Below, one piece after another: positions 5,259-59,000 of a stretch of 64,000 bases of DNA. The notes beneath the pieces are model-generated. The model ran no database searches and was not told the origin of the DNA. It saw nothing but the letters and a program-made list of their open reading frames with translations. This DNA is from Xiphophorus maculatus. Taxonomy: Eukaryota; Chordata; Actinopteri; Cyprinodontiformes; Poeciliidae. The first letter of the stretch is position 1, and every line of letters begins with the position of its first letter. The translations under genes and the position numbers were made by a program. The stretch lies in the NCBI RefSeq assembly GCF_002775205.1, contig NC_036453.1:12914594-12978593 (forward strand), in the 5' to 3' direction.

Positions 5259-5537
5259 TCAATCCTCCTTGGCGGGCGGCGGCCTGCGGCTCCGCAGGTA
5301 CAGCCGGTAGCCCTTCCTCACCAGCAGCACAAACCAGTAGAGCTGCGGCGCCAGGATGCAGCAGTTACCCAGGTTGGTGGCGAGCGGCAGGTGGAAGGGA
5401 ACGGCGTGCAGCGGGATGCCGTAGTGACGGCCGTACATCCAGTACATGAAGGGGAAGAGGGCGATGCGGCACATGAAGAAGGTCAGCAGCACCATGCCGC
5501 CGTTGGCCTTATGCAGCCAGCACTCCTGTAGGCTCAG
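5259..5537 (-). CDS. tlcd3b: tlcd3b exon 5 (residues 176-267 and stop)
   Basis: The acceptor follows a C/T-rich tract (CGCCCCTCCAG). The exon encodes the last membrane segments: [44 protein letters not shown], and a basic tail ending PPPAKED before TGA. The first seven residues (LSLQECW) differ from the YKQQHTL usual in human paralogues, although the spacing to LHK is kept. Confidence 0.88.
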   Translation of the reverse strand: MSLQECWLHKANGGMVLLTFFMCRIALFPFMYWMYGRHYGIPLHAVPFHLPLATNLGNCCILAPQLYWFVLLVRKGYRLYLRSRRPPPAKED

Positions 5538-17470: not shown

Positions 17471-20400
17471 TTCTGCTGAAAACATACTTTTGTTCTATTA
17501 ATGTGTGAATCACCAAAATGTACAAACTCATGTTGGAAACTTTGACTTTTATGAGTTTAAATTCATGTGTTTGTGGTGTTTTCTGACTTTCTGGGCCTGT
17601 TTGGACGTTTTCTCCTCTCTAGGTGCTTCCTGGTGTGTCAGCAACATCTAATCCTGATGCGTCAAGCTGCAGATTTATCACCAGCCGAGCTGCTGCTGCC
17701 TGCCTGCCTGCCTGCCTGCATCCAGCTTTTTTAATTGTTGGCCTGAACTACTGGCCTCATCACTGCTGTCTCAGGACCCCTCTCCACCCCTCCGTACCAG
17801 TGTGATAGGCAGCAGGATGGTGAGCAGCGCGATGTGGTGCAGCACCAGCAGAAACTCTCTCCGGACGAAGGAGTTGATGGTCTTCAGCGAGTGCTGCTTG
17901 TAGTCCTCATGGCCCTTGACGTGGTAGCGGTAGTAGTGGCTGAGGTACATGGCGAAGATGTCGTACGTCATATAGGGGACGCCGTACCAAATGACGAAAT
18001 AGGTGGCCAGCCAGTGCCTGAGGAGAAATTAGACGTATAATAGAAAACCAGCAGAATCAGCAGGTAGGTTCATGTTCAGAGTAACGTAGTGGTTCATTAA
18101 GAAAACAGAACTGAATAAAAATGACAACCTTTGACCTTTCACTTAGTTCTTTAGCTCTGAAACTTAGAGGAAGAAGATTAAAAGCAGAAACCGGCCAAAG
18201 AGATCAGAATGGAAAACAGACTGCATGAGCTGGAAAAACCTCTGTTGCTAATTGTGCCTTAAGGGTGCCATCCAGACAGCAGGGCAGGGCTCCTATAAGT
18301 CTAACAATAGTTCAAGGTAGGAAAGATGGAAGGACAGCATTTAGTGAACTGAATAGACAATAAAGCCTGGAAATACTAATATTTCCCCCTGACTTCTTAT
18401 ATTCTGCTTCTCCAAAGCAGGAAACACTGAAGTGAACCCAGATGTTCCCACTCTGTGAAGGAACCCTGGATCCCGTTAAGACGTCTTATATAAACCACAG
18501 GCTGCGTTCCGGTACAGATGCTGTTGATGTTCCACAGATCAGGAAAACGGGTTCAGGTAAATAAACCAAGTCAGATTTAATGAGGCCCGTTTCATTACAT
18601 CCACCAGACGAGGCGAAGCGTCCCAACCAAAGGACAGGTCCCGACTCTGGGCCGTTTGTGTGGAGCATGGATCTGATAAGCTCCAGGCTCAACGAGCATC
18701 ACTGAACTGAGCAGCGCTGAGGATTTAATATGGGGAGGGGGGGGGATTAGCAGGCTGAAACTGGGACTGCTTGGTCCGGCTGCTGACTCAGTGGGATTAA
18801 ACTTTAGCCTAGTATCACACTTTCCTGAACCACAGAGAGCCCAGCGCTACGCTAACACACACCTCAGCCAATAGCAGGTCCATGAAGACTCTCGTTTGTA
18901 CCAAATTATTTCTCTTGGTTGCTACTAAGGGCGTGAAATATGGACTGGGAATTTCATCATGATATTCTGTAGCACTATTGTGAAAACAATATAAATTATG
19001 ATTAAAAAAAAAAAAAAAGTATTACTTCTTTTTTATGCAACTACATGGCACAGAATTTTCAGTTAAACCTAAGAATGTGTAATAAATGGTTTTTTCCATC
19101 AACATTTTATTGTTATCACAATAATATCTCACCATGAATGGATATTTATCTGTGTGGTTTATATAAAAACAAAAACGCTTGTCCCAAACCAAACCGGACT
19201 TTAGAGACGCTTAATACAAGGCTTTGATTGGTGATTATCCACTGATTAGTAGGAAGGGTGTCAATAATTTTCATCTTTTTTAATAAAATCTAAATATGTT
19301 CAATCATCAATATGTTCTTTCTTGAGAAAGCGAGAGAAATGACAAAAACAAGACAGTAAGAAAGAAACAAAGAATGAATGATGGAACTAAACAAAGACAG
19401 AAAGAAACAAAAGGAAATAAACAAAGAAAGACTCAAGTGTATCTATTAAAATTAAAACAGCCATTGTTCTGATAAAAAATAAAAGCTAACTGTTACTATT
19501 ATGTGAATACTCATTTATGTGCAGATTAAATGTTTTTAAAAACAGTTTCCCTCAGACTAGCTGTTAGCATCTATTTATCCAAAGTAAAGCCAAGTACTGA
19601 ATGTAAGATATTTATTGCTTGTAATGTCTCCAAACATCCCCACTAAAACATCCATCCATCCATCCATCCATCTTCTTCCGCTTATCCGAGGTCGGGTCGC
19701 GGGGGTAGCAGCTTCAGAAGGGAGGCCCAGACTTCCCTCTCCCCAGCCACTTCTTCTAGCTCCTCCGGGGGAATCCCGAGGCGTTCCCAGGCCAGCCGAG
19801 AGACATAGTCCCTCCAGCGTGTCCTGGGTCTTCCCCGGGGCCTCCTCCCGGTGGGACGTGCCCGGAACACCTCACCAGGGAGGCGTCCAGGAGGCATCCT
19901 GACCAGATGCCCGAGCCACCTCAACTGGCTCCTCTCGATGTGAAGGAGCAGCGGCTCTACTCTGAGTCCCTCCCGGATGACTGAGCTTCTCACCCTATCT
20001 CTAAGGGAGAGCCCAGCCACCCTACGGAGAAAACCCATTTCGGCCGCTTGTATCCGCGATCTCGTTCTTTCGGTCATGACCCAAAGCTCATGACCATAGA
20101 TGAGGGTGGGAACGTAGATGGACCGGTAAATCGAGAGCTTCGCTTTTTGGCTCAGCTCTCTCTTCACCACGACGGACCGGTACAGGGCCCGCTTGACAGC
20201 AGACGCTGCGCCAATCCGCCTGTCGATCTCCCGCTCCCTTCTTCCCCCATTCGTGAACAAGATCCCGAGATACTTAAACTCCTCCACTTGGGGCAGGACA
20301 CCCCCCCTGACCCGGAGAAGGCACTCTACCCTTTTCCGGCTCAAGACCATGGCCTCGGATTTGGAGGCACTGATCCCCATCCCGGCCGCTTCACACTCGG

Positions 20401-23400
20401 CTGCGAACCGCTCCAGCGAGAGCTGCAGATCACGATCTGATGAAGCCAAAAGGACCACATCGTCTGCGAAAAGCAGAGATGAGATCCTAAGGCCACCAAA
20501 TCGGACCCCCTCAACACCTTGGCTGCGCCTAGAAATTCTGTCCATGAAAGTGATGAACAGAATCGGTGACAAAGGGCAGCCCTGGCGGAGTCCAACTCTC
20601 ACCGGAAACGAGCCCGACTTACTGCCGGCAATGCGGACCAGACTCTGACACCGGTCATACAGGGACCTGACAGCCCGTATCAAAGGGCCCGGTACCCCAT
20701 ACTCCCGGAGAACCCCCCACAGGGCTCCCCGAGGGACACGGTCGAACGCCTTCTCCAAGTCCACAAAACACATGTAGACTGGTTGGGCGAACTCCCATGC
20801 ACCCTCCAGGACCCTGCCGAGGGTGTAGAGCTGGTCCAGTGTTCCACGACCAGGACGAAAACCACACTGCTCTTCCTGGATCCGAGGTTCGACTATCCGA
20901 CGGACCCTCCTCTCCAGGACCCCTGAATAGACCTTGCCAGGGAGGCTTAAGAGTGTGACCCCTCTATAATTGGAGCACACCCTCCGGTCCCCCTTTTTGA
21001 ACAGGGGGACCACCACCCCAGTCTGCCAATCCAGGGGAACTGCCCCCGATGTCCATGCGACATTGCAGAGTCGCGTCAACCAACACAACCCCACAACATC
21101 CAGAGCCTTAAGGAACTCCGGGTGGATCTCATCCACCCCCGGGGCCCTGCCACCGAGGAGCTTTTTAACCACCTCGGTGACCTCGTCCCCAGAGATTGGA
21201 GAGCCCAACCCAGAGTCCCCAGGCTCCGCTTCCTCAGTGGAAGGCATGTTGGTGGGATTGAGGAGGTCTTCGAAGTACTCTGCCCACCGGCCCACAACGT
21301 CCCGAGTAGAGGTCAGCAGTACACCATCCCCACTATAAACAGTGTTGGTGCTGCACCGCTTCCCCCCCCTGAGACGCCGGATGGTGGACCAGAATCGCCT
21401 CGAAGCCGTACGGAAGTCTTTCTCCATGGCCTCTCCAAACTCCTCCCACGCCCGAGTTTTTGCCTCAGCAACCGCCCGAGCCGCATGCCGCTTCGCCCGC
21501 CGGTACCCATCAGCTGCTTCCGGAGTCCCACAGGCCAAAAAGGCCCGATAGGACTCCTTCTTCAGCCTGACGGCATCCCTCACCGAAGGTGTCCACCAGC
21601 GGGTTCGAGGGTTGCCGCCGCGACAGGCACCGACAACCTTGCGGCCACAGCTCCGATCGGCCGCCTTGACAATGGAGGCACGGAACACGGTCCACTCAGA
21701 CTCCATGTCCCCCACCTCCCCCGGGACGTGTTCGAAGTTTTGCCGGAGATGGGAGTTAAAGCTCCGTCTCACAGGGGATTCCGCCAGACGTTCCCAGCAG
21801 ACCCTCACAACACGTTTGGGCCTGCCAGGTCTGACCGGCTTTCGCCCCCACCACCGGAGCCAACTCACCACCAGGTAGTGGTCAGTGGACAGCTCCGCAC
21901 CTCTCTTCACCCGAGTGTCCAAGACATACGGCCGCAGATCCGATGAAACGATGACAAAGTCGATCATCGAACTGCGGCCTAGGGTGTCCTGGTGCCAAGT
22001 GCACATATGGACACCCTTATGCTTGAACATGGTGTTCGTTATGGACAATCCATGGCGAGCACAGAAGTCCAGCAACAGAACACCGCTCGAGTTCAGGTCG
22101 GGCGGGCCGTTCCTCCAAACCACGCCCCTCCAGGTCTCACTGTCATTGCCCACGTGAGCGTTGAAGTCCCCCAGCAGAACAAGGGAGTCCCCAGGAGGAG
22201 CACTCTCCAGTACCCCCTCTAAGGACTCCAAAAAGGGTGGGTAATCTGAACTGTCGTTCGGCCCGTAAGCACAAACGACAGTCAGAACCCGTCCCCCCAC
22301 CCGTAGGCGGAGGGATGCTACCCTCTCGTTCACCGGGGTAAACCCCAACGTACAGGCGCCGAGATGGGGAGCAACAAGTATGCCCACTCCTGCCCGACGC
22401 CTCTCACCTTGGGCAACTCCAGAGTGGAAGTATGTCCAGCCCCTCTCAAGGAGACTGGTTCCAGAACCAGAGCCGTGCGTCGAGGTGAGACCGACTATTT
22501 CTAGCCGGAACCTCTCGACCTCACGCACTAGCTCCGGCTCCTTCCCCACCAGAGAGGTGACATTCCACGTCCCAAGAGCCAGTTTCTGCAACCGAGGATC
22601 GGACCGCCAGGGTCCCCTCCCTCTGCTGCCACCCATCCCACACTGCACCCGACCCCTTTGGCCCCTCCCACGGGTGGTGGGCCCATGGGAGGGGGGGCCC
22701 ATGTTTCCTCTTCGGGCTGAGCCCGGCCGGGCTCCATGGGTAAAAGCCCGGCCACCAGACGCTCGCCATCGTGCCCCCCCTCCTGGCCTGGCTCCAGAGT
22801 GGGGCCCCGGTGACCCGCGTCCGGGCGAGGGAACACCAAGTCCAAAGTTCTTGTCCATCATAAGGGGTCTTCATAAGGCCACTAAAACATGCTGGAAGAA
22901 AATTAAATTTGAGCTACAAGGACTATAAGAATAAAATCTGACCTGTCATAAATGATGTTGTTGCTGCATGAGGAAACGACGACGATCCCCGCTGTTGTTG
23001 CCATGACAGCGTGGATGGAGGACACCAGTCTGCAAAGAAAGACATCCGTTCATCACCATCATCATCATTACCTGAAAAAATATATAATAACTTTAATAAT
23101 AATTAATGCTCCAGACAAGATGGCCTCCGGGGAACGTCTGTGCATCAGAACATTTCTAACGGTTCACGTTTTCCGGGTCAAAGTTCATAGACTCTGAACA
23201 AGCAGCTGGTCAACTGTCAATAAATGACCAGCGTTTAATATTAGAATATTAATCAGTCAGTTTATAACGGAGGAATCAGCTAACAGGAAGTTCTCCTTTG
23301 GCGTCCAGCAGGACGGATGAGCTCCAGGTGCCACAAGTTTTTATATGTTTATGGTACAAACATTAAAACTCAGGGAAATCTTCAGAAATCAGGGTTTCTG

Positions 23401-26400
23401 CACATTTCAATTTCACAGTTAAATTTAGGAGTTTTCTACAGATTTTAGCATGATTCTGAAACAAGCACACAGATTTTAAATATAATGGGGACTGATCTGC
23501 TGCTCTGCTGTAACCAAAGCTTCATAAAGTAGACAGAGGTCAAGATGTAGGCCACTCTTAGCATAACATAATTTAGGATAGCATAGCACAGTTGTATTAG
23601 CATTTCCTCCCTCTTTGCCCAGAGCGGTGACCCAGGAGAGGTTGCGTCTTTAACCAGCTCTATGACCTCTGGGAAGTCAGCGATGAAGGGACAGAGCAGC
23701 AGGATGAAGGCGGGTGGTGCCGGAGCAGGACCTCTGGTTACATCACCAGGCTGTGAATGGGAGCTTCAGCTGGGACCGGCTCTGCTGCTGGCGGCGCTCC
23801 AGCTTGGCAGCACCGACACTAAGCTCCTTTAAAATCTGAAAACATTTCATTTAATCCCCCCTCCCCGCTCTGGAGCTGTAATAGCTCCGTTTACACAACA
23901 CTTTGTTGAATAATGATTTCCTCTGATGGATGTGCATAACAAACGCACATTGATGAGGGGAACTGGCTTTACTGGTACAGCTTAAAATTAAAGCTCACAT
24001 TTAGATAAGAGCTTTTTTTTCTCACTTTCCTTTCAAAATATTTCTTTCAGAAAACATTGTACAAGTGGTTTTATTTCAAACATCCCTTCTGTGTCTTGTA
24101 CAATGGAATATCAGCTACATTTTTTTTACAGGTACAGTCGTAATATTAGCAGAATAAAGGTAAATGTACTAGAAAAACATCTTAATATTCTGAGAAAAAG
24201 TTATTTTAATAAGAAAAAGCTTGTAGAATTTTATATTACATTTTGTGTTGGAGTATAATTTTACGAACTCGTTCCCCCAACGACACACCTCGTTCCGCCA
24301 ACGACCTCGTTCCCCCAACGATACGAACTCGTTCCCCCAACGACACACCTCGTTCCGCCAACGACCTCGTTCCCCCAACGATACGAACTCGTTCCCCCAA
24401 CGACACACCTCGTTCCGCCAACGACCTCGTTCCCCCAACGATACGAACTCGTTCCCCCAACGACACACCTCGTTCCGCCAACGACCTCGTTCCCCCAACG
24501 ATACGAACTCGTTCCCCCAACGACACACCTCGTTCCGCCAACGAACTCGTTCCCCCAAACGACACGACCTCGTTCCCCCAACGATACGAACTCGTTCCCC
24601 CAACGACACACCTCGTTCCGCCAACGATACGACCTCGTTCCCCCAACGACACGACCTTGTTCTGCCCACTTTACTGCCTCATTCTGCTAACATTACGACC
24701 TCATTCTTGTAATGAAAAAAGAAAGAAAAAAAAATCTTGCCTGACCCAATTTCAAAGTCCAAATAAACTGAAGCTTTAAAACAAGATGGCCACCCCAGGC
24801 GTGATGATGTCGCTAAATTACGGAAACATGAGGAGAAAAAAATGCGAAGACTAAATGTTCAATAGCCAGAAACTTAATTAATTGATAAATCCATTTATAG
24901 TCCAGCCCTGTTTACTGGTTTAACTGGAGAAGAGTCTGATGCTTCGTTCACATAGCAGGTCTTTATGTTCTTAATTTTTTTTTTTTTTTCCTAAAATTTG
25001 TTTTGTCTTCATTGGTCGTTCATGATACTAATTAAATTCAACCGCAGTCAGGCTGGACAGCTTACAACCTAAAAAGCGACCTGAATGTGTGAAGCAGGGG
25101 TGGGCACTCCTGGTCCTCGAGGGCCGGTGTCCTGCAACTTTTAGATGCATCTCTACTTCAACACACCTGAGTCAAATAATGAGGTCGTTAACAGGACTCT
25201 GGAGAACTTGACTGCACTTAGGAGGAGATTCAGCTGTTGGATTCAGGTGTGTTGGACCAGGGAGACATCTAAGAGTTGCAGGACACCGGCCCTCGAGGAC
25301 CAGGAGTGCCCACCCCTGGTGGAGGAATTTAGATGTCACACAGCAGTGGAAGTCAGAGTGTGGGCTTTACTATTGCTTAAAGTGGTTTTTGGCTTTTCTG
25401 AAAAAGAGTTAAAGAGCTCAAGTGGAGCTGGAAACACATTTGTTCTGAAGTAACAAACTTTCACACTGGCACTGGTCTGTGCCTTCCCAGAGGCACCAAA
25501 CTCCAAACATCCATTTCTGTTTCCATTTCATGAAGGAAGTTGCACTCAGCGTCTTCTTCAGAGGTTTTTGTGTCGCTTCCTTCAGTGGTTCTTGGTGCAG
25601 CGCCCCCACAGGTGAGGAGGTTGCTCAAAAGGTTTGATTGGTTTGACTCAGAGCAAAGAGAAAGAGAACCACAGTAGCTGGAGATGGAGCAGTTGATAAA
25701 GTTTTGGTCCCAAATATACCAAGTCTATCGGTCTATCAGGAGGGAAAACTTCCTAAAAGTTCACAAAGTTTGTAACAAATGTGAAAGAGTAAGTTGTTTT
25801 CCATGAAGACGGGTTTTCAGCTCAGTTTTGCACATTTTAAAGAAGAAAACCCTAAAAGTTGCTGGTTGTTGGTTGAAACCACAGACTGGAGGAAGGGAAG
25901 ACGGCCAAACATTTCCCCCTCCAGTCCTGCTGTAGCTCTGACTGTGTGGCTGCACGCCGTGTCACAAGACCCAGATTTCACACAGTCTGCCGTTCATTCA
26001 TCGTGTCCGCCAGTAACCCCCCCGCTGACGAAACTCTGAGGTCGGTGGGGTGAGCACAGCGAGGAGGGAAAAGGAGAAATGCCCGGCTTTATGCTCCTGC
26101 TGCATTAGGCCGGGCTACCTCAGTGTTTCCTTCCTACAGGCTGCTGCTGCTCGGCCCACCAGAGCCCGGCACTCGGTACCGGAGCCGGTTCTGATCCTCC
26201 AGGACTGGAACAGGAAGTCTCTCTCTACATTAGAACCACATTGTCTGATAAATGGATGCTGCCACATCACTGAGTGCCTGAGCAGCGGTTAATCAGTTAG
26301 AAAACAGGAAATGATGTTGATGATCTTGTTTATGTTGAAGCACTTTTTGATCGATGGAAGGAGAGTAAATGAGATCGACTCTAAACAGTTCATCGATTCA

Positions 26401-40899: not shown

Positions 40900-40985
40900 G
40901 ATGGGAGGGCTAAAAATGATAACAGGGTCATTAAAAGATAAATATCCTCCACAAGGGAAGACAGTCGTCACAGACAGCCTCTCTG
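40900..40985 (+). promoter_or_regulatory. Likely promoter-proximal region and 5' non-coding exon of mucin-like gene 1
   Basis: A donor CTCTG|GTGAGTAGCTC at 40985/40986 resembles the donor TCAG|GTGAGCAGCTC at 47064/47065 in front of the second paralogue. GATA-type motifs (TGATAA and AGATAA) occur just upstream. The transcription start is not defined. Confidence 0.35.
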
Positions 40986-41287
40986 GTGAGTAGCTCACAT
41001 CTCCTCCCCGGGTTTAACTTCAAAGAAAAAGATTTTTACATTTCAAGTCAACATTGTTGATTTTTGGTCAAATATTTGCTGAAGTTGTGATCATTTTTAT
41101 CTGAAACGTATTAAAATTTGTTTTTTAGGCAAAAACATTTTGAACCACAAATATTGTTAGTTTTTTTGTTGTTGTGGTTGTAAATGTTTAATAAATGATC
41201 TGTATGAATATTAATCCATTCTTTTATGTTTATAATTCTGTTTTTCCAGCAGCAGCAAAAAGCAGAAAATAAAACAACTCTGGAAAA

Positions 41288-41333
41288 ATGCTCAGAAATT
41301 TTCTTGTAGCGTCTCTTTGCCTCCTCGCCACAG
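41288..41333 (+). CDS. Mucin-like gene 1, signal-peptide exon
   Basis: It encodes MLRNFLVASLCLLAT and the first base of codon 16, ending at G|GTAAAA. A non-coding part of the exon starts at 41250 after TTTTTCCAG. Confidence 0.8.
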
Positions 41334-42929
41334 GTAAAAAGGACTAAAACTTTTTATTTTCACATTTAGCAGAAGGTGGTTTCAAGAATATTGTTCATTT
41401 ATGTATCTATGTGTATTTATAATCACATGTACAGTTTTTCTCGTTTTTTTGGTGTTCTGGTAGCCAAGGAACGATGTTTCATTGTGAAATTGTTTGTTAT
41501 GTCTGTCCAACAACAAAAAACGAACGTCAAAGTTCAAGTAAACCTGGAAGCAATAAATTGAGAAGAAAATGAGGAAATATCTGGTATTGAACGCCAGACA
41601 CAAATATTTCAGCATTTATTTGAATTTATGAGTTGGTTGAAGCGTAAATGAGGTCACGTCGGAGCGTTTCTGCGATGTGGCCAAAGGTGATGATTGATAA
41701 ATGATAAATGATGTAGAAACTGTTTAGGTAAAGGGTTGGTCACGGCTCTTTTCTTATCACCAGAATGGTGATTTACACCTTAACGGTTTAGTTTGGAGAA
41801 AATTAAATATTAATACTATTTTGTAACGAGGAGGATTTTCAGGATTTAGCTTTACGTGTTTTCTTTCTGATACAGTAAATCTGTGTGGGACAACGGAGAC
41901 ACCTACTACACCAGAACCACCAACAACACCAATACCAAAAAGCACCACAGACATTAGTACTGAAACTTCAGCTAGTCCACCAACTTCACCAACCTCAACC
42001 CCAACTGGTTCACCAGCCACAGTCGACCAAACTGGTGAAACTGGTTCACCAGCCACAGTCGACCAAACTGGTGAAACTGGTTCACCAGCCACAGCCAGCC
42101 TAAACTCAACCACAATCCTCCCCTCGTCGGGACCGGCCTCGCCAGGGCTGTCCGGAGGGGCGATAGCCGGCATCACCATCGGTACCATCGCCGGGGCGGG
42201 CTTACTGGGTGAGCATAATGGACAAACACACAAACTGTTATGCAACGCCGCAGTTTCCACCACAAACAGTCTGTCAACCATTAACCAGGAAGGAGAGCGG
42301 TTTCCTCTGCTTTACTGGTCTCCAGGTCTTTGAATAAATGCAAATGCTGCTGTTCATATAGTAACTCAAACCAAATTTATTTAGAGAAAGAGAAACTAAT
42401 CTTTATCTGGACAAAAAGTTCAAAATTAAATCCAAGTTAGAAACTGTAAAGTCATTTAGTAAGATAGAATATTACTGAAACGTCCATTGGGAAATCATGG
42501 CGTCCAAAGCTTTAGAAATGGTTCTGCAATCCTTCCTGCTGATAGATGTAAGTGACTTTTAGCCTACTTCATGCTGTCAAACAGGCTCTTTATAATCAGT
42601 TTTTTTCATTTCAGAGGCCTGTAGAACGGCGTATCAGGGTTAAATCAGGGGACAAAACAGAGGAGTACATTTACGGCAGAAAATCTCAGAAATTTTCAAG
42701 CGTTTTTAAAAATAATGTCTCTGAGATTAATCTAAAAGTTTTTTTTGTAGCACATTTTTGACTCCTTAAACTTAGAAATGTTCAAGTTTCTCTAGAAATT
42801 TTCTGAGACTAATGTAAAAAGTTCTGAGTTTTTTCTATTCTTTTCTGTTCTGTTGGGGTGATAAAGTATTTTCCTTTATTTCCAGGCGGCGGCGTCTACG
42901 GTCTGCTGAAATACACTAAAAAAATCTGA
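41288..42929 (+). CDS. Mucin-like single-pass membrane protein, paralogue 1 (140 aa), unrecognised family
   Basis: Exons 41288-41333, 41876-42208 and 42886-42929, all GT-AG and phase 1, give 140 residues. Residues 1-19 (MLRNFLVASLCLLATVNLC) look like a signal peptide. Residues 20-105 are Thr/Ser/Pro-rich with a 12-residue repeat (GSPATVDQTGET) present about 2.5 times and one N-glycosylation sequon (NST); such regions are normally O-glycosylated. Residues 112-134 form a hydrophobic segment [16 protein letters not shown]... with glycines at 114, 118 and 122, a GxxxGxxxG glycine zipper. The tail is only KYTKKI. AATAAA follows at 43047. I do not recognise a named family and propose no function beyond a mucin-type surface or secreted protein. 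The paralogue at 47359-51474 has the same exon plan. Confidence 0.8.
41876..42208 (+). CDS. Mucin-like gene 1, Pro/Thr/Ser and membrane-segment exon
   Basis: It is 333 nt, phase 1 at both ends, after TCTGATACAG and before GTGAGC. It encodes the PTS domain and most of the glycine-zipper segment, ending GAGLL. Confidence 0.8.
42005..42090 (+). repeat. 36-bp coding tandem repeat (about 2.5 copies)
   Basis: The unit starts GGTTCACCAGCCACAGTCGA and encodes GSPATVDQTGET. The copies are identical except at the end, suggesting recent expansion or homogenisation. Confidence 0.9.
42886..42929 (+). CDS. Mucin-like gene 1, C-terminal exon
   Basis: It is 44 nt after TTTATTTCCAG, encoding GGGVYGLLKYTKKI and TGA (first Gly codon split). 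It is almost identical in sense to 51431-51474. Confidence 0.8.
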
Positions 42930-43046
42930 GAACAATTCCCCCCCCATCAAAGACTTAAATGTTGAAACATCGCACGCTGCAACGTTTCCTATGATCCGAT
43001 CCGGTTAGCGGGACGGGGAGGAGGCGGGCTTTTCTCAAAGGATCTG

Positions 43047-43052
43047 AATAAA
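43047..43052 (+). terminator. Poly(A) signal of mucin-like gene 1
   Basis: AATAAA 118 bases after the stop codon, the first such signal downstream. Confidence 0.5.
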
Positions 43053-43559
43053 ACCGTCAGTGAAAGCTTCATGGCCCACCAGGAGTAAATCCATTATAGT
43101 TTCTTGACTGCATTTCTTTAAGTCAGACGGTAATTTTGATGATGATTTTAACGTAACAGCAAATTCTCTGCATATTTATCGGTTTCTGTCTGCAGTGAAC
43201 GGCATAAATGTGTCGACCAGAAAGTTTTGTTGTCATTTATGAAAATATGTGAAAAACTGTAATTAAGATTATGAATAATTTATAACATTTAGTGTGATGA
43301 ATAGCCATCTTGGTGGATTTACATCCTCATTAGAGACTTGCTCTCTTTCACTCCTTCAGCTTTAATAAAAAACGGTTTTAGTTTCTTTTGTCATCTGGAA
43401 ATAAAAATGTTACAAACCTTTACAACCATCCAGACAGGGCTTCACTGCTGAGGCTTTATATATATTTCAGAACATAAAGTTGGTTTATTTTCATATAATA
43501 AATAAAGAAAATCAGACAATTAAACTTTTTCCTTTGTCTTCCTTTTGCTTCCTGCCTGA

Positions 43560-44440
43560 AATCTTCATGCTAGTGTTAGCTTTTCATCTCATTTCACCTC
43601 AAATGCAAAAGAATGGAGTAATTTAATGTTAGCAAATATGCTAATGTCAGTTAATTTAATTTCCCTTTGGGATCAATAAAGCACTTTTGAATTCAATTAG
43701 AATTTCAATATACTGTTGAAAGCATTTTAGCTAGCATTAGCTGTTTATTAAATTATAATTATTCATCATTAAACTAAATGGAGGAAGTGAATGTTGTCTA
43801 CATGCTAGTGATAGATTTCATGCTAATGTTAGGTTTTTACCTCATTTTCCCTCATAGCAAAAGTTAGCATACTGAATGGAGCAACTTAGTGTTAGCAAAC
43901 ATGCTAGTGATAGTCAACATGCTAGTAAAAGCATGCTAGCATTAGTTAGTTTTAGATTCTATATTGTTATTTCCATTCTGAAGTAAGTCATGATTTGCTA
44001 ACATGCTAGTGTTAGCCTTTTAGTTACAATTAGCTTTTCAGCTATATTGTACTAGACAGAGTAAAGCAGTGTTTATCAACCTGCTGATGATAGCCCAAAT
44101 GTTGATGCTAACATTTTACATTACCAGTAAGCTAAATTTAACCTAAAAGATAAAATTGGTAGTAAGCTTTAAAGTTTTTTTCACACTTTTTATTTTTATG
44201 GCCAACACGTTAGTGCTAGCATTTTCAGCCAGCAAGATCTTATTAGCTAATTTTAGCTTACAAACAAATGCTACTATACTAGAAGGAAAATGTCTCTTGT
44301 TGTGAACATGCTATAGATACCAACAGCATAATGTTAGCACTTTAGCTCACATTTACATTTCATTATTTTAGTTTACATATGAGCACACTAGATGGAGTAA
44401 GTTAATGTTAGTTAGAACATCAGCTAGCAATGTTTTAACC
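43560..44440 (+). repeat. Degenerate long tandem repeat built on GCTAGTGTTAGC
   Basis: The phrases ATGCTAGTGTTAGC, TGCTAATGTTAG and GCTAGCATTAGC recur, each followed by CTTTTCATCTCATTT-like text and an AATGGAGTAA-like block. This implies diverged units of roughly 150-240 bases. There is no coding signal. Confidence 0.7.
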
Positions 44441-45819
44441 AACACTGTTCTTACTGAATGAGGTCAGATTTAACTCTATAGAGTTAATCAGATTCTTCAA
44501 AAGATGACCTGACAGTTTAGTTTCATAAGCAGTGCTATGTTTTTATACTCTTTAAAGGGAGGTCTGCATTGACTTAAGTTGGTCGCCCAATTTAATCTGA
44601 TAATTTATTACATTTCAGAAAGTTTTTTGCGGCTCACTTAAAATGCCTCAGAAATTTTGACTCAAAACTTCAGCTTACTGCTTGCATTTTTGCAGGAAAT
44701 CAAACCCAAAGTGGCAAAAACTTTCACCAAAGGTGTTCTCTTCTCTGAGAGAACATACGCCAAAATCGTCAAATGATGATTCATGGTGAAAAAAAAAATA
44801 GTATTTTACCATCTTAACAATAAACTAAGTATGCAATACTTTAAATAAAATACTCTAACTCTAAAATAACTGGAAAGTTCCTTTTGGATTTTAGGGTCAA
44901 AGTTCAGGTGTTATTTGAGCTTTAAGATGCTAGTTAGATGTAAAAGAATGCCTTGTTGACATGGTAGAAACATCTGGACCAGTTACATCTCTAATGGATG
45001 ATAGAGCTGGATTATTAAGGGAGAATCTTAAATTACAATCTAGATTTAACAATGGAAGATAAAATAGAGGAGAAATATAATCTCTGTTTTTAATTTCAAT
45101 CAGAACGGCAGCGTTTTGGATCAGCTGAAGGCTTTTAGCCTTCTGGACTTCCTGTAAATTCTAGAAACCTGTTTATTCTTTATTATCATAGGCTACAGAG
45201 GGTCTTTTTCAGAGGTTCTGGTCCAAAAACAATAACTTCTGTCTTGTCAGCAATAAAAACCAGAAAGTTCAGCGTGAAACGTTAATCTAGGCCCAAACTG
45301 GGTAAATACTGGAACGAAAAATGGACCAAAATTCTCCCACAACGATGGAAGAGACGGATAAAGTCATATAGAAAGTGAACACTGAGGCCGGCTGTGAAGG
45401 CTTTGAATCAGGGGGTGTGTTTTGTTTTATGACATTTTAAATTCGTCTTTCCTTTAAAAATAATCAACGTGTTGAATCTACTGTGTTTTTGAACGTTTAG
45501 GGTGAGTTTTAACCACCTGGGATGTGCTTTAAATGGGAACAGGCTGTAGTTTGTTCACGTTATTACATATAAATGTAAAAATAACCATTCTCCTTCCTTC
45601 TATTGATCATCTACTGACATTGGCCGCAATATCAGAACAGGTCAAAGTTCAGACGCAGGTAATGAATGAGTAGATTTGTCCATATTTTATAGCTTAATGA
45701 GGCAGGGTAGCTACACATCTATGGAAAACTACACAGCCAACATGTGTCACCACTAGTGACATCATGGGGTGAAAGGTCAGTTCTAGGAGCAAGCAGGTCC
45801 AATTCAGATGTAGCTCTAA

Positions 45820-46200
45820 ACTGAATATTTTTGGTCTGAAACTAAATATTGAAGTATTTACATTTAGCTCAGAGCTAAATATTTAACTCTGAACTAAATA
45901 TTTAGGTTGCTAACTAAATATTTACTTTGAAGCTAAATATTTCAATATTTACTTACAAACTAAATATTTTTAAGTATTTGGTTTGTGTTTTATTGTTTGC
46001 GATTTTTTTTATGGTGGGATAGCTGAAAGAAATTTCAGCGGTGAACAATAGTTTTATTTAAAAATAAATATTTCAATATTTAGATTGAATCTAAAATTTT
46101 AAGTATTTAGTTTAAGTTGTAACATTTCTGATTTTTCTTATGACAGGCTAAATAATCCAAATTAATGCTGTTAATTTTTGACTGTATCTTCACAAATGGC
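45820..46200. repeat. Second TAAATATTTAG repeat array with fold-back arm
   Basis: GCTAAATATTTAA, GAACTAAATATTTAGG and GCTAACTAAATATTTA units repeat. GACAGGCTAAATAATCCAAA at 46145 matches the right arm near 38200 (GACAGGTTAAATAATCCAAA). Confidence 0.7.
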
Positions 46201-46990
46201 GGCTATTGCATCTCAATAATCATGGACCAGTGAAAAGTTTTTTTTCTGTCATTTGGTTCAAAAAGAGAAACTTGTCTAAATTCGTTGTTCAGCGTAACGG
46301 TTTAGTTCTGTTCATTTTCATAGTTCTGACTTACAGCGAATGAAAACCTGATATTCAGTTTCTTGGAAAATTAGAAAAAAATGACATGAAATTTTTACAG
46401 ACATGTTCGGTTCTGGCCTCTGCCTGTCCGTCCACTGGGTTTTAGTTCTGACCTACAGCTCTCTAATGGAAAGTTCAGTGGAAGGAAACAAGTTTCACAA
46501 GCAATTTATAAGATTTTGAAACAAAGCTCAGTTCACAGCAGCAAAGATTTTTGGAGTTTCTCGCTGGTAAATTATCCTAATGGTGGATTATCAGGATTAA
46601 TCTGATGTAATCTAAGACTTGCGTCCTTATCAGGGTTTGGTGGCAGCATTTATTCAACCGTTTTCGGCAGATGAACACAAATGTCATCTTCATGAACTAA
46701 GAGGAAGAAAGGGAAATCATAAACAAAGGGACAGCGTCCACACTTCCCTCACAGAGCAAAGATTATTGATTAACTTTATTAAATCCATTTCTGCTTAGCA
46801 GACAGAACAACTGAGACTTTCTGCACCAGCTGTTTTATTAGTGATTCATAACATTTGATCAGTAAATACTGTGATCATTACGTTAAAAAGCAAACAACAG
46901 TGTTTAATTTTCAGGAAATAGGTGTGAAATAGATGAAATGTGGTCCACACTGTGATGAGGTTTTACAGTAGAAATGCTCCGCCTTCATGG

Positions 46991-47064
46991 GAAGGTGATA
47001 AAAAAAAAAACTCATATAAGCTGAATATCTACTGGTGTTACTGGAAATAAGCACATCCCCTCAG
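46991..47064 (+). promoter_or_regulatory. Likely promoter-proximal region and 5' non-coding exon of mucin-like gene 2
   Basis: A CATATAAGC TATA-like motif (about 47012) precedes a candidate non-coding exon that ends TCAG|GTGAGCAGCTC at 47064. A GTGATAAA GATA-type motif lies just upstream, as in front of paralogue 1. Confidence 0.35.
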
Positions 47065-47358
47065 GTGAGCAGCTCTCCTCTCCAAAATCACTTTCTGTAA
47101 TTAGTTTCTGCATTTTTCAGGTTTTTCTCTGGTAATTTATTATTATTATACCTTCATAGTTCTGATTAATCACCTGAGAACAGCTGAGAATTCATCTTTA
47201 TTTTCTCTTTTAAAAAAACAGATTTATCATTTCCAATTGATGTTTAGTGGGAAAATGTCTGTAAATGAACTGGTTTCTTACATTCATGTTTTGGTGTTTT
47301 TCTCTTTCAGGACTAAACTCGGACATTCCTGGTTTTGAGTCTCAGTTTCTCCAAAACG

Positions 47359-47404
47359 ATGAAGAATAATCTGTGTGTAGCGGCACTTTGCCTCCTGAGT
47401 ACAG
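47359..47404 (+). CDS. Mucin-like gene 2, signal-peptide exon
   Basis: It encodes [15 protein letters not shown] and the first base of codon 16. The exon begins with non-coding sequence at 47311 after TCTCTTTCAG. Its length equals that of the paralogue 1 exon. Confidence 0.8.
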
Positions 47405-50400
47405 GTAAAAAAAGACTGAAAATTCAATAATATCTATAAATAATGTCATATTATAACTTTGAAGCGTTTAAATTTGAACCTGAAAGGAAACAGTAGCATG
47501 GTCTGATAAAAATATTTCAATATAATCTTTATTTAAAATGTTTCAAAACCTTCAAGTTGAGTTTTTTTTAAAGCAATGATTCTTCGATTTATCAGCCGAT
47601 CTTGTGATTCACTCTGTTGATGATTATTTAAATCTGAAGGAAAAGGAAGCAGAGGAATTTACAGGGAGACAATGCGGCCAATAAAATGAGCTGTTAACGT
47701 TTTAACAGCTCTGTTTAAGAGTCTGCTGTGACCCAGAAACCTGTTTTAAACGTTTAATTGAATCCTGAAGCATCGTTTTAAAACCTCAAGCAAAAAACTG
47801 AAGTAATTATCTTTGGAGCTAAAGAGGAACGATCAGGAGTCGGCACACGGCTTCAGTTATTACAGATAGAAACCAGAGATCAGGCTGAAATCTGGGTTTG
47901 AACCTTCAGAGTCACTTAAAGACAGTTACAAAGTCAGACTTTTATCAGCTGCAGAACATTTCCAGGATTAAATGACTAATGATGCAGCATTAGTGTTTAG
48001 ATGTGTTAATCCTGAATACTGCAAGCGTCTTCAAAAAGTCACACACTGAGTTCCTTTAAATAAAGAATCAAAACCTGCCTTTGATTAATAACTGGAATAT
48101 TGATTCATGTATTTGATTATTCTTGACGATTCTGATGGTGACATTTGACAAAATGTAAAGCCTGTTGCTTGTTTCACACTGGTTCGTTTATGTTTTTATC
48201 ATGTTGAAGCACTTTGAACGGCCTCGTCGTTGAAGCATTCTGAACTAATAAACTTGATTTTCCATTTCTTGATTAAACTGATGCAGTAATCCTGTGCCGA
48301 GCGACGACCACTGAGGCTCCAGTAACTTTAACTGGGTCAACGTCGGCTCAAGGAACACAAACTACTACACCCACCACAGCTAGTACACCCACTACACCCA
48401 CTACAACTACTACACCCACCACAGCTAGTACACCCACAACAGCTAGTACACCCACCACAGCTAGTACACCCACTACACCCACTACAACTACTACACCCAC
48501 CACAGCTAATACACCCACAACAGCTAGTACACCCACTACAGCTACCACTGCTACTACAGCCACTACACACTCTACAGCACCAACCGAACCCCATTCAGCC
48601 TCAACTGGTGGACAGACTAGCGCTTCAACTGGTGGACCCACTGTAACGCCAACTGGTGGACCCAGCCCCAAACCTCCAGGACTCTCAGGAGGAGAGATAG
48701 CTGGCATCACCATAGGAACAATTGCTGGAGCGGGCTTATTGGGTGAGTGTAGTAAATAAATAACATATTGTCAACAAGAAAAATACTGGCCAGTTGATGT
48801 GGGTGATCTTTTATGCACTTTATTCCTGTGAGACTGAGGTCGATGGTGTCTGTCTGTGGTCAGTAGGGAAGAGGCGGGTGCAGCCTGGACGGGCCACCGG
48901 TCTACCTCAGGGCGACAATGACACAATAAAAGCAACACCCGAATTTAAATCTAAAGATGTTGATGCAGAGCAAGAGAAGCCAGAGAAAAGTAACAACTAG
49001 AAAACCAGTGGTGGACAATGTTGCTAAAATGTTAGCAGCGATAGCGCTAAAGCTCTAGTCTTAAATATTAGTTCCACTGAAACGCTAAACCAACATGGCA
49101 CTGAGCACAAGCTAATGCTAAAGCACTGAAGAGCTAATTTGATGTCGACCATGTGTCAGTGAAACAACATGTCTACCACATTGTGTAGCACTCTTAACAA
49201 ATCTGTCATTACGCAGCGACTTGTTTCCTCTTCAGGAAGCGATTCTCTGGAACAACCTTTCACTCAGGTTCAGTTCTGTAGTTGGTCAACATTGCTAACT
49301 TTGTTTGTTGTATATGTGCTCAAAGTTTCTTGAATAAAGAAAAGAAAGAGAACTTGAGGAAACAAAACGGAATTACTGCATAAGTCTTCGCTCCCTTCAA
49401 AATAAAAGCATGGACAAGAAGTCCAACTACCTGAAGATTTCCTAACAGCCGACAAGTTTACAAAACAGACAATAAACTAAAACAGATTTAGAATTTATCC
49501 AGAAAATTTGGTTTAGATTCTAAACAAGCTGGAGTTCAAAGACGCTAAGGCGCTAACTGAAAACTTTGCTACGCTATTAGCACATTAGTGGAAATGTACC
49601 TACTACTGTAGCATGATTATTTTTTGAGGGGGTCCTGGAGACAACATTTGTTGTGAATATGAACACACTGAATTGAATTGAACAAGAAGAAAACTGAAGT
49701 AAACTGTTAGGGGATCAGTCGCTGCTGCTTCTGGGACTAGAAACGTAGCTCCTTGGCCTTAAAACCCAATATGGCTGCCTCATTCTTAAAAACAAAGGAA
49801 TCCTGCAAAAATAAAAGATTTGCAGCACATATTTGACTATCTATTAACTCAGTCTCAGGAAATACACTGCCTGGCCAAAAAAAAAGTCGCCACCTGGATT
49901 TAACTAAGCAAATAGGTACAAGCCTCCTATTGGATAAGTACTGCATAGGCGATTATCTTTCAGCTGGCAACAAGTTATTTAACCCCAGCTGATGCAATGA
50001 GTAACTCCTCATTTCTTAAACAACCATGGCAAAAGACACATCCTGTGGTCGTGGAAAAGACGTTAGTCAGACTGTTTAAGAAGGGTCAAATCATTGGCAT
50101 GCATCAAGCAGAGAAAACATCTAAGGAGATTGCAGAAACTACTAGAATTGGGTTAAGAACTGTCCAACGCATCATTAAAAACTGGAAGGATGGTGGGGAA
50201 CCATCGTCTTCCAGGAAGAAATGTGGTCGGAAAAAAATCCTGAATGATCGTGATCGGCGATTACTTAAATGTTTGGTCAAATCAAATCGAAGAAAAACAA
50301 CAGCAGAACTCAGGAGTATGTTTAATTGTGAACGCTAAAGCATTTCCACACGCACAATGCGAAGGGAACTCCATGGGTTGGGATTGAACAGCTGTGTAGC

Positions 50401-51474
50401 CGTAAGAAAACTTCTAATCAGTAAGGCTAACCAGAAAAAAGACTTCAGTTTGCTAGGGAGCATAAAGATTGGACTCTGGAGGAATGGAAGAGGGTCGTGT
50501 GGTCTGATGAGTCCAGATTTACCCTGTTCCAGAGTGATGGGCGCATCAGGGTAAGAAGAGAGGCAGGTGAAGTGATGCACCCATCATGCCTAGTGCCTAC
50601 TGTACAAGCCTGTGGGGGCAGTGCTATGATCTGGGGTTGCTGCAGTTGGTCAGGTCTAGGTTCAGCAACATTGTGTGCCCAAAGAATGAGGTCAGCTGAC
50701 TACCTGAATATACTGAATCCTGAATATACTGAATGACCAGGTTATTCCATCAATGGATTTTGTCTTCCCAAATGGAACGGGCATATTCCAAGATGACAAT
50801 GCCAGGATTCATCGGGCTCACATTGTGAAAGAGTGGTTCAGGGAGCATGAGACATCTTTTTCACACATGGATTGGCCACCACAGAGTCCAGACCTTAACC
50901 CCATTCAGAATCTTTGGGATGTGCTGGAGAAGGCTTTGCGCAGTGGTCAGACTCTCCCATCATCAATACAAGATCTTGGTGAAAGATTAATGCAACACTG
51001 GATGGAAATAAATCTTGTGACACTGCAGAAGCTTATTGAAACAATGCCACAGCGAATGCGGGCTGTAAACAAAGCTAAAGGCGGTCCAACAAAATATTAG
51101 AGAGTGTGACCATTTTTTGGTGGCGACTTTTTTTTTGGCCAGGCAGTGTATGTTGCTGCAGCAATTAGCTTATTTTGCAGGAAAAAGCTAGCTTGATCGC
51201 TAAGCAACAAACAAACCTTCATGTCTTTCATTCTAGCAACTGGAGCCAAGTCACTTCTAAGGAAATTTCTTATAAGAGGTCAAAATGTATAATAATGTAT
51301 TTAGATTAGAACTAGTATTTGAAATGTGGTCTTTGTTGTCACATTCATCCCACAAAAAGACATCAATGAGTAACAGATAAAGTTCTTTCCTCTGTGATCA
51401 ATAATGAAAACAATGTTATCTTCATTTCAGGCAGCGGTATCTACGGTCTGCTGAAGTACACCAACAAAATCTGA
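47359..51474 (+). CDS. Mucin-like single-pass membrane protein, paralogue 2 (181 aa), unrecognised family
   Basis: Exons 47359-47404, 48287-48742 and 51431-51474 (GT-AG, phase 1) give 181 residues. Residues 1-19 are a signal peptide ([19 protein letters not shown]). Residues 20-146 are extremely Thr-rich, with [12 protein letters not shown] repeats, then three TGG units ([23 protein letters not shown]). Residues 147-167 (GLSGG, then [16 protein letters not shown]) and the last 14 ([14 protein letters not shown]) match paralogue 1 nearly perfectly, with the same GxxxGxxxG pattern (G155, G159, G163). Thus the membrane segment is conserved while the ectodomain diverges in length and repeat type. 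AATAAA follows at 51520. Intron 3 holds a dead Tc1 element. The role is unknown; a mucin-type surface protein is inferred from composition only. Confidence 0.8.
48287..48742 (+). CDS. Mucin-like gene 2, Thr-rich and membrane-segment exon
   Basis: 456 nt, phase 1 at both ends, after TGATGCAG and before GTGAGTG. It is 123 nt longer than the same exon of paralogue 1, because of the repeat array. Confidence 0.8.
48355..48560 (+). repeat. Coding minisatellite of ACACCCACCACAGCTAGT-type units
   Basis: 18-base (and 9-base) units encode [12 protein letters not shown] and variants. An 84-base block is itself duplicated within the array. Confidence 0.88.
49865..51148 (+). mobile_element. Tc1/mariner element, 1284 bp, in mucin-like gene 2 intron 3
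   Basis: Perfect 30-bp terminal inverted repeats begin CACTGCCTGGCC, continue A9 and end GTCGCCACC (49865-49894 and 51119-51148), each flanked by TA. The plus-strand transposase frame inside is broken. Perfect ends with a broken frame suggest a moderately recent insertion. Confidence 0.93.
49997..51100 (+). pseudogene. Broken Tc1-like transposase
   Basis: The first part (49997-50338) is a paired HTH DNA-binding domain: [61 protein letters not shown] stop follows at 50336, then frame changes through 50357-50736 ([15 protein letters not shown] and [12 protein letters not shown] in different frames). The last part (50753-51100) keeps the catalytic D...E end: [20 protein letters not shown] and [20 protein letters not shown], where Tc1 enzymes usually have E in NPIENLW and here it is Q. 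Stop, shifts and this change make it inactive. Confidence 0.88.
51431..51474 (+). CDS. Mucin-like gene 2, C-terminal exon
   Basis: 44 nt after TTCATTTCAG, encoding [14 protein letters not shown] and TGA. Confidence 0.8.
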
Positions 51475-56032: not shown

Positions 56033-59000
56033 CTGCGGAGACACGCGCCACATGCTTTAGTTTTTAATTTATTTCATTCATTTAGAGCTTAACCTTAACA
56101 TCTCACATTTTAACATAAACCAAAGTTTTGAATAAAAAGGAGTAGTTTGAAGAAAAGAACAATCTTGTATAAACACGTTGCATGTTATTGTTTACATCCG
56201 GAGATTTGGCGCATGCGCACAACGCTGAGGGAAAGAAAAAAACAACAACAAAAAAACATAGCCACACGCAGACTCATTGCCATAGCAACTGACTGACAAC
56301 AACGCCACTATATGTTTCAGGATTCAACACCAATAAACACTCAAACATTTCCCACACAAAGAGCAGAACATTCAGGACATTTATGTTTTCAGGCTTGAAG
56401 TTTATCTTTGTGATTATTGATGAGTGATCACTGTGGTAGATTAGCTACCTTTGTGGTTAGCTAAATGAGCTAATCTAATACAGCAGTGGTTGATAGCTAA
56501 TTTAAACGCCTGCTCTCCTGATGATCTGTCAGACAGGTGGTGTGTGGGTGGCCTTTTTTTTTTTTTTAACTGAACCAAAAACACCAAATTCCACAGCACA
56601 TCTACATGTTAAGGTTGTCAAAATCAAGCTAGCATAACTGACCTACTTCCTTCTCCCTTGCCATTTTCTTCTTAATTAAAACTTTTTCCTAACCTAATCT
56701 AATTGTAGCGTTGACATTTAGTATTAAAGCACCGCGTCTCTTTAATATATCACATATACATTAAAGATTTAGCTCCTTATATTGAAGACTTGACAGCTAA
56801 AACCAAAGCTAGTCATCATAGAGCTAGCAGCCTTTTTTCCCCTCCTTTTTTGCAAAATAAAAATAGAATTTGCTTATCCTTTTCAAACATTCCCTCAATA
56901 AATACAATACGTGAAATAGGGAACGATCTGTATAACCATATAACGTAATTTTCTTTGATATGTTTGTCTTTAAATTGTTGATGTGTGGTTTCCAGTTTAA
57001 GTTTTCATCAAGAGGAATTTGATCTCTCTCACGTTTAATCTCAACCCCATCAACATCAACCTCTCTTTTGCTAAATATCATGTAGTTAGTTTTTTCAACA
57101 TTCGTTGATAATTTATTTATTAGTTATGTGTGTGTTTTAACCCGCTAAGCACACACACACACACAGATCCACAGGCTCACAAACATGCAGCTGACCCCTA
57201 ATTTGGTTGTAAAATTTAAGCTGCTGCAGAGTTTTACGGCGACAATGAGGTCGGCGGCGGGAGCAGCAGGCAGAGGCTGCGTGATCGGCCTGATAAGCCG
57301 ATACGTGAACCCAGTGAGGTGAGATCTGATACCTGGAGTCGTTGTAGCTGAACCACTCCCCCAGCGCCGGGTTCCTGCAGGACGCCGTGTAATGGCCGCC
57401 CAGCGCGTTCCCCGTGTGGTTGGACACGGCGTACAGGTTGTAGACGGGACGCTCTGCAGGAAGAATCAATCAAGTTTATTTAACACATTGAAACAAAATG
57501 GCAGTTTAAAGTGCTTTACATCCTGAAAACATCATAAAATCCAGTGACAGACATTAAATTCTGTCAAACTCACTGGCCAATGTTTGAGTTATTATGAATC
57601 AAAATCAGCTCTAACCAGCTGAGTTTTAGTCTTGATTTAAAGGATCTCAGTGTTTCAGTTGTTTTGCAGTTCTCTGGAAGTTTGTTTTTCTAGAATTTGC
57701 TGGGACTTTAGTCCTTTAATCCTGTAAATAGTGATAGAAGACTGACTTTGTAACTGTCTTTATGTGACTCTGAAGGATCAGGGCCCAGATCTGGGCCTGA
57801 TTTGTAGTTTTTAGCTGTAACAACTGAAGCTTCTTCTCTAGATAGTTTCTGTTTTTGCTGCAGATACTCACCGCCGCTGTCCGCTGAAAATTCCCTCAGG
57901 TCCAGATCTTTGAGAGGAAAGTCGACGAAGGTGTTCAGTTTGCTCGCTCGGACATTTGAGTCTGAGAAACGCTTCAGGTCTGAGAGGCAAACCGGGGTCA
58001 AGGCACAAAAACCGTTTATTTGGTATTGGTGCATACCTTTACGTTAGCGGGAGGATTAGCATCTGCATGCTGCAAAAACGACTGCAAAAAGGATACGAAG
58101 TACAAGAACCTGAGGGAACCTCTGGATGCTGAACCTCTTGGTGCATTTTCTTCTGGCTTTGCATTTGTTGCAGGTCTGAGAAAGAAATAAACGCGTTGCA
58201 GGCAGTCAGATTCTGTCTGCAGCATCTTAAAACAGAAAAAGCTGCTGGCCGTCGTCCAGGTCTGTTACCGGTCTTTCTTCTCCGTCCAGCACATCTTCTC
58301 TTGTGAAGAGCCTCAAGCAGTCCTTCAGCGTCACTTCACCAGAGCTCTTCTGTGGACGATCAGACAACATCCAGTCAGAATAATTCATTTATCACAATCT
58401 CAGAGTGTCATGATCTCCGAGTGAAGGTTTCAGGAAGAATTTAATGTTTTATTGATTGCTTTTTGCTTTCTGAGAGCTTAACATCGTCAACGTGAGGACA
58501 GAGCAGTAATATGTAGGGCTGCAGCTAATGATTATTTCAGTAATCGATTATTCTGATGATTAATTGATTAATCCACAAAATAATTGATTACTCTATCAGT
58601 TATACTTATGATTAATTAAATAATCATCAGAATAATCAATTATTCTATAAATTATATCGTCAGAATAATTGCTAATCCCACCAATTATTCTGATCATTAA
58701 TTGATTAATCGGATAAAAAATTGCGACATTCTGCATATTATTTATTTATGAGCTTATTTTCTACTTTAGAAATACATAAAAATGCAAATAATCAAGTAAC
58801 TCAATTCATTTTCTACATAAAATAAACATGTTATTGTCTAAAATGCAATAACAGCATCTCAAGCTCAGTCAACCCTTCAAACATATACTGATTAATCATT
58901 GATAGCAAAAGTTGCTGAACAGGATTTTCTTTACTGTATTTGAACCAGGTGAGGGAAAAACACTAGATGAGTTCTAGATAGAAAATATGGCTTTCTAAAG

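Follow-up and report, generated by a model that had tools for sequence, protein, structure and literature searches.

We find, on strong evidence, that two adjacent forward-strand genes of Xiphophorus maculatus (gene 1 and gene 2) are true tandem paralogues. The reading that we favour, at a probability of roughly 0.6, is that they code for small type I membrane glycoproteins that bear O-glycans, each anchored by a glycine-rich helix with a possible tendency to self-associate. The pair lies in a 64,000-nt stretch of DNA (the window), C11:12914594-12978593 of a 704-Mb, 101-contig assembly, and the whole genome was searched. A first-pass annotation of the window had described this tandem pair; the observation is confirmed, with the corrections given below, and the interpretation that it offered is supported in part.

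Gene models and a putative non-coding exon

Three coding exons of 46, 333 and 44 nt (gene 1) or 46, 456 and 44 nt (gene 2) encode proteins of 140 and 181 aa, respectively (Table 1). Each gene has two coding introns, all GT-AG, and every exon join is in phase 1 in both genes. The identical plan that had been described for two neighbouring same-strand genes, a first exon of 46 nt and a last exon of 44 nt around a variable one, was found as annotated. An AATAAA/ATTAAA word follows the stop codon at 118 nt in gene 1 and at 46 nt in gene 2. Chance origin of such three-exon models is ruled out by the third-position bias and the low dN/dS of the membrane anchor described in the next section.

Similarity between the genes also reaches upstream. 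A stretch of about 100 nt that spans a splice donor, some 300 nt 5' of each start codon, aligns between gene 1 and gene 2 with a local score of 43, a value reached neither in 5000 dinucleotide shuffles (best 41) nor by any of the 699 other stretches compared within the window (best 34). In the 200 nt upstream of it the alignment is at chance level (713/2000 shuffles reach the score). Both genes carry an acceptor AG shortly 5' of the start codon, ending at 41249 and 47310, and the stretch from acceptor to start codon is of borderline similarity (42/2000). The conserved stretch seems to consist of a proximal promoter and a short putative non-coding exon 0, and since it is present in both genes the plan would comprise four exons and not three. 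Conservation beyond shuffles was not found in the 3' UTR or the tested intron 1 ends, about 170 nt each (844, 922 and 297 of 2000 shuffles score as high), and outside the exons the DNA alignment extends just a few bases beyond the exon ends.

Table 1. Features of the gene pair and its surroundings (window positions, except in the last row)
Feature	Position	Strand	Details
TLC-domain gene	5262-5576	-	Pfam
Gene 1 proximal promoter and putative non-coding exon 0	40901..40985	+	Donor after 40985; alignment with gene 2 continues to 41004; boundary by inspection
Gene 1 exon 1	41250..41333	+	5' UTR starting after AG at 41249, then 46 coding nt from 41288 (coding 41288-41333); signal peptide
Gene 1 exon 2	41876..42208	+	333 nt, phase 1-1; PTS ectodomain and most of membrane segment
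Gene 1 tandem repeat GSPATVDQTGET	42003..42094	+	36-nt unit, 2.6 copies, 100% matches
Gene 1 exon 3	42886..42929	+	44 nt; membrane segment end, tail KYTKKI, stop
Gene 2 proximal promoter and putative non-coding exon 0	46987..47064	+	TATAAG by inspection; donor after 47064
Gene 2 exon 1	47311..47404	+	5' UTR starting after AG at 47310, then 46 coding nt from 47359 (coding 47359-47404); signal peptide
Gene 2 exon 2	48287..48742	+	456 nt; Thr-rich PTS ectodomain (71% S+T+P) and most of membrane segment
Gene 2 TPTTxx array	48362..48576	+	18-nt unit; 63- and 81-nt higher-order periods
Tc1/mariner-type element in gene 2 intron 2	49862..51151	+	Perfect 33-nt inverted ends; transposase frame interrupted, split over three frames
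Gene 2 exon 3	51431..51474	+	44 nt; membrane segment end, tail KYTNKI, stop
USP2-like ubiquitin protease gene	57140-58043	-	UCH domain in frame 57140-57469; frame 57711-58043 best matched by USP2
C8-domain exon	L010:9258-9638	-	About 19 kb beyond the window

A conserved anchor and a divergent ectodomain

Judged from sequence and hydropathy, each protein is laid out as a signal peptide, a Ser/Thr/Pro-rich ectodomain and one helix. Hydropathy over 19 residues has one peak at the N-terminus (1.66 and 1.97) and another at the anchor (1.63 in each protein), with negative values between the two. With the helix end set by eye, about six residues of cytoplasmic tail (KYTKKI or KYTNKI) precede the stop, and this charged tail argues against a GPI anchor.

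BLASTP aligns the two proteins at E 6e-42, with 81/181 residues identical; a good part of this match is low-complexity sequence. The informative signal lies in the DNA, which agrees at 92/111 nt in the anchor and at 31/39 nt in the exon-1 region. Over the last 36 codons, 32/36 residues are identical and 19/108 nt differ, distributed over codon positions 1, 2 and 3 as 3, 1 and 15 (binomial p 6e-5 for the third-position excess). The NG86 estimates are dN 0.054 and dS 0.79, a dN/dS of about 0.07, and LWL85 gives dN 0.077 and dS 0.886. When the 19 changes were placed at random, none of 5000 trials produced as few as the four observed amino acid changes, the fewest being six. On these comparisons, purifying selection has acted strongly on the anchor ever since the genes were duplicated, fairly long ago: amino acid changes are few, third positions are in excess and random placements are never as conservative. 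The signal peptide, which had been described as conserved together with the C-terminus, is merely moderately so: 11/18 residues agree over its first 18 codons (dN 0.37, dS 0.53), and the description holds for the anchor.

Glycines occupy anchor positions 6, 10, 14 and 18 in both proteins, forming GxxxGxxxGxxxG with four glycines at i+4. Permuting the residues gives a run of glycines as long with p 0.13 for gene 1 and 0.08 for gene 2. The spacing and the small-x3-small-x3-small register of the proposed glycine zipper are therefore present, but they are not improbable given the composition. According to PMC8395321, roughly half of all membrane helices contain small-x3-small motifs. Glycine spacing alone proves nothing, and conservation under purifying selection is the better argument.

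In a PDB search with a limit of E 10, the gene 2 anchor returned a single match, the membrane helix of EphA1 (2k1k), at a non-significant E of 0.086; the gene 1 anchor returned no match there. EphA1 is described in PMC8395321 as pairing through A-x3-G-x3-G, with Glu547 at the N-terminus of its helix. Like gene 2, the EphA1 helix has a GLxGGEI start and a small-x3-G-x3-G register, and the G-x3-G-x3-G of gene 2 aligns on the EphA1 dimer motif A-x3-G-x3-G; unlike the pair, EphA1 is a receptor kinase. The glutamate at the start of the gene 2 helix aligns with the single glutamate of the matched EphA1 stretch (GGEI), which we take to be the ionisable Glu547, and gene 1 has an alanine there. We treat the match as a lead on mechanism and not as kinship.

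From the signal peptide to the anchor, the combined share of Ser, Thr and Pro is 62% of 86 residues in gene 1 and 71% of 127 residues in gene 2. Under the PTS rule as given in PMC5728529 (more than 40% S/T and at least 5% P per 100 aa), gene 1 passes marginally, with 3/41 windows, and gene 2 passes with 76/82. The GSPATVDQTGET unit of gene 1 occurs as two full copies and a GSPAT start. The 12-residue repeat annotated in this gene exists, but in no more than these copies; both 36-nt DNA copies are identical, which makes it a young, small duplication and not a long array. In gene 2 the TPTTxx pattern matches nine times. Convincing alignment between the paralogues is lost in the exon-2 repeat region and the Ser/Thr/Pro richness is kept. 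That the ectodomain "differs completely", as first annotated, describes this region well and is slightly overstated for the exon, whose start and last pre-helix residues look alike by eye. A fixed anchor beside a divergent PTS exon is borne out, between these two paralogues, by the selection statistics.

Copy number, neighbourhood and family searches

With either anchor as query, all of the scored candidates in the genome (3/3) lay within gene 1 and gene 2. A search with the full-length gene 1 protein yielded 20 rows up to E 10 from 70 scored candidates: the pair itself at E 1.7e-61 and 0.003, and 18 others at E 2.7 or above. Four of these 18 weak loci (L015, L016, L018 and L020, the last two overlapping) show no glycine-rich anchor by eye in forward frames of at least 60 aa. 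Gene 1 exon 2, searched as DNA, matched itself alone and missed gene 2, so this search is too blunt for old copies; the genome protein search in turn uses an initial screen that can miss distant ones. We also considered a larger tandem array and rejected it, since tblastn of both anchors and both signal peptides against the window had no hit outside the pair with an E below 0.12. In 40 kb of flank there are just two weak signal-peptide matches, at E 0.12 and 0.83. Gene 1 and gene 2 are the only credible copies found in the 704-Mb genome. Separately, C20:30065628-30066281 (L018/L020) is a long tandem array that translates to VDGRSVFPLTSL-like repeats, a weak low-complexity match to the gene 1 protein.

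We surveyed the neighbourhood through stop-to-stop frames of at least 60 aa outside the LINE and the minisatellite of the window: there are 240, of which 164 have a G+C of at least 0.42, and 150 of those 164 were listed. The Pfam scan covered 138 frames (137 of those listed and one transposase frame), a selection that excludes short or A+T-rich exons. It places the pair between a TLC-domain gene and a USP2-like ubiquitin protease gene; a frame of the latter (57148-57465) had no match in PDB. Among 59 of 136 flank frames scanned, VWD, ZP-C and ZP-N domains were found in one frame each, together with the C8 exon suggesting alpha-tectorin. TLCD5, USP2 and TECTA are all located in human 11q23.3, so the block may be old. 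We know of no mucin gene at this block in mammals. A POU-domain search for POU2F3 synteny found its nearest match on the same contig 1.85 Mb away, among the matches listed.

Other elements of the window are a non-LTR retrotransposon-like frame (19682-22870, minus strand) that runs for 1062 stop-free codons and by eye resembles endonuclease and reverse transcriptase, and a minisatellite at 24262-24707 with a 60-nt unit in 6.6 copies, whose period, being divisible by three, leaves several frames open on either strand. Between gene 1 and gene 2 the spacer is A+T-rich at 43560-44440; many catgctagtgttagc-like words can be seen there by eye, and it contains two short tandem rows.

Searches of Pfam, NCBIfam and PDB gave no significant match for either protein. 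Up to E 10 Pfam lists just DUF1180, FGF-BP1, Endomucin and VSP, all below the cut-off, and its scan of both proteins found no SEA, no VWD, C8 or TIL, and no Ig domain. Pattern matches in a viral collection (253) and a prokaryote collection (595) include none related by tblastn, although neither collection can speak on fish, and Rfam has 0 matches within the window at the gathering score. Among the titles and abstract openings listed from the open-licence literature, none describes the pair. The pair had been called unrecognised, and within these databases and that literature it is.

Small mucin-like type I glycoproteins such as podoplanin, CD164, endomucin and glycophorin carry a short Ser/Thr-rich ectodomain on one helix. 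The pair has a similar layout and matches none of these families, only the Endomucin model being listed (gene 2, E 8.2). It would fit this loose kind, which is not a homology family. A transmembrane mucin of the MUC1/MUC13 type was rejected: the PTS domain is there, but the SEA domain is absent from the matches and the tail has about six residues. A gel-forming secreted mucin was likewise rejected, with no VWD, C8 or TIL match in Pfam. The fish membrane mucins Muc13 and I-Muc of sea bream resemble the pair in having a PTS region and a single membrane helix; according to PMC3680472, both have a SEA domain and sea bream membrane mucin tails run to 26-52 residues, whereas the pair has no SEA match and a tail of about six. 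Two further sources describe mucins, including mammalian MUC7, in which the number of PTS repeats changes and glycosylation content is kept (PMC4997351, PMC12776774). MUC7 is a salivary mucin and the mucin cases considered here are mammalian; in the fish pair the conserved part is the membrane anchor.

Interpretation of the gene pair

The exon plan, anchor dN/dS, hydropathy, PTS rule, promoter-and-donor conservation and the single pair found in the genome all speak for two mucin-like membrane glycoproteins. Against this reading stand the marginal result of gene 1 on the PTS rule, the p of 0.13 and 0.08 for the glycine spacing, and the unconserved 3' UTR and intron 1 ends. Among the alternatives, a leukocyte or endothelial sialomucin of the selectin-ligand or CD164 type, in which the rod presents sugars to lectins and the helix sets the dimer state, is improbable but deserves to be kept in mind. 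A short PTS rod that is bound to the membrane and lacks SEA is as much in keeping with adhesion sialomucins as with epithelial coats, although the Endomucin match falls far below the cut-off. The concentration of selection on the anchor could also mean that the anchor is itself the product, either a membrane-active peptide or a helix binding another receptor as partner, with the PTS stretch as spacer. Glycine-rich helices do occur in membrane-active peptides; an ordinary type I topology suffices here, however, and with no known cleavage site or partner we hold this account to be quite unlikely.

That the genes are a relic pair whose expression has been lost is less probable again. The transposon in gene 2 intron 2 would suit such a history, but neither coding frame is broken, no splice-site dinucleotide is lost, the anchor shows a strong third-position bias, and the genes share a conserved promoter-and-donor stretch where their 3' UTRs and intron 1 ends lack conservation. 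Least credible is descent from a CEACAM-like ancestor, a degenerate Ig-superfamily gene in which a PTS exon replaced the Ig exons and the phase-1 signal exon and GLSxGAIAGI-type membrane start were inherited. The phase-1 signal exon and the symmetric 1-1 exon agree with it, and the membrane start presumably resembles that of CEACAM-like genes. The Pfam scan of the two proteins found no Ig domain, however, and the non-significant EphA1 match suggests that membrane starts of this kind can evolve convergently.

For two small O-glycosylated type I glycoproteins, as we prefer to read the pair, the following course can be proposed. The signal peptide would route the chain into the secretory pathway, where GalNAc-transferases may decorate the PTS stretch and so stiffen it into a rod some 86 or 127 residues long; transfer would stop at the glycine-rich helix, with the short lysine-bearing tail left inside. 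Glycosylation and surface location are accordingly predicted for both proteins. Since the tail, at about six residues, leaves no room for known signalling motifs, the protein would act through its coat and form part of the glycocalyx of epithelial or blood cells. The helix may pack against its own copy or a partner via the small-x3-small face, and such packing is proposed as the reason why it is nearly unchanged. Divergence of the paralogues would then amount to different rod length and sugar density. Helix pairing and the role in the glycocalyx are what we infer from these features.

A bolder proposal, which we consider doubtful, is that the pair represents a fish family whose selected glycine-zipper helix forms homo- and hetero-oligomers of interchangeable mucin rods. 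Repeat change could alter rod length and sugar load without touching assembly, and the gene 2 glutamate could make that assembly pH-responsive.

The pair is ordinary in kind and, within what was searched, unnamed as a family. Short PTS-rich fish proteins tend to carry uninformative automatic labels. If the anchor proves common across fish and the PTS exon varies, the family would provide a name and a handle for such proteins, and it would offer a clean natural experiment on change under selection in a mucin-like coat held on a fixed anchor.
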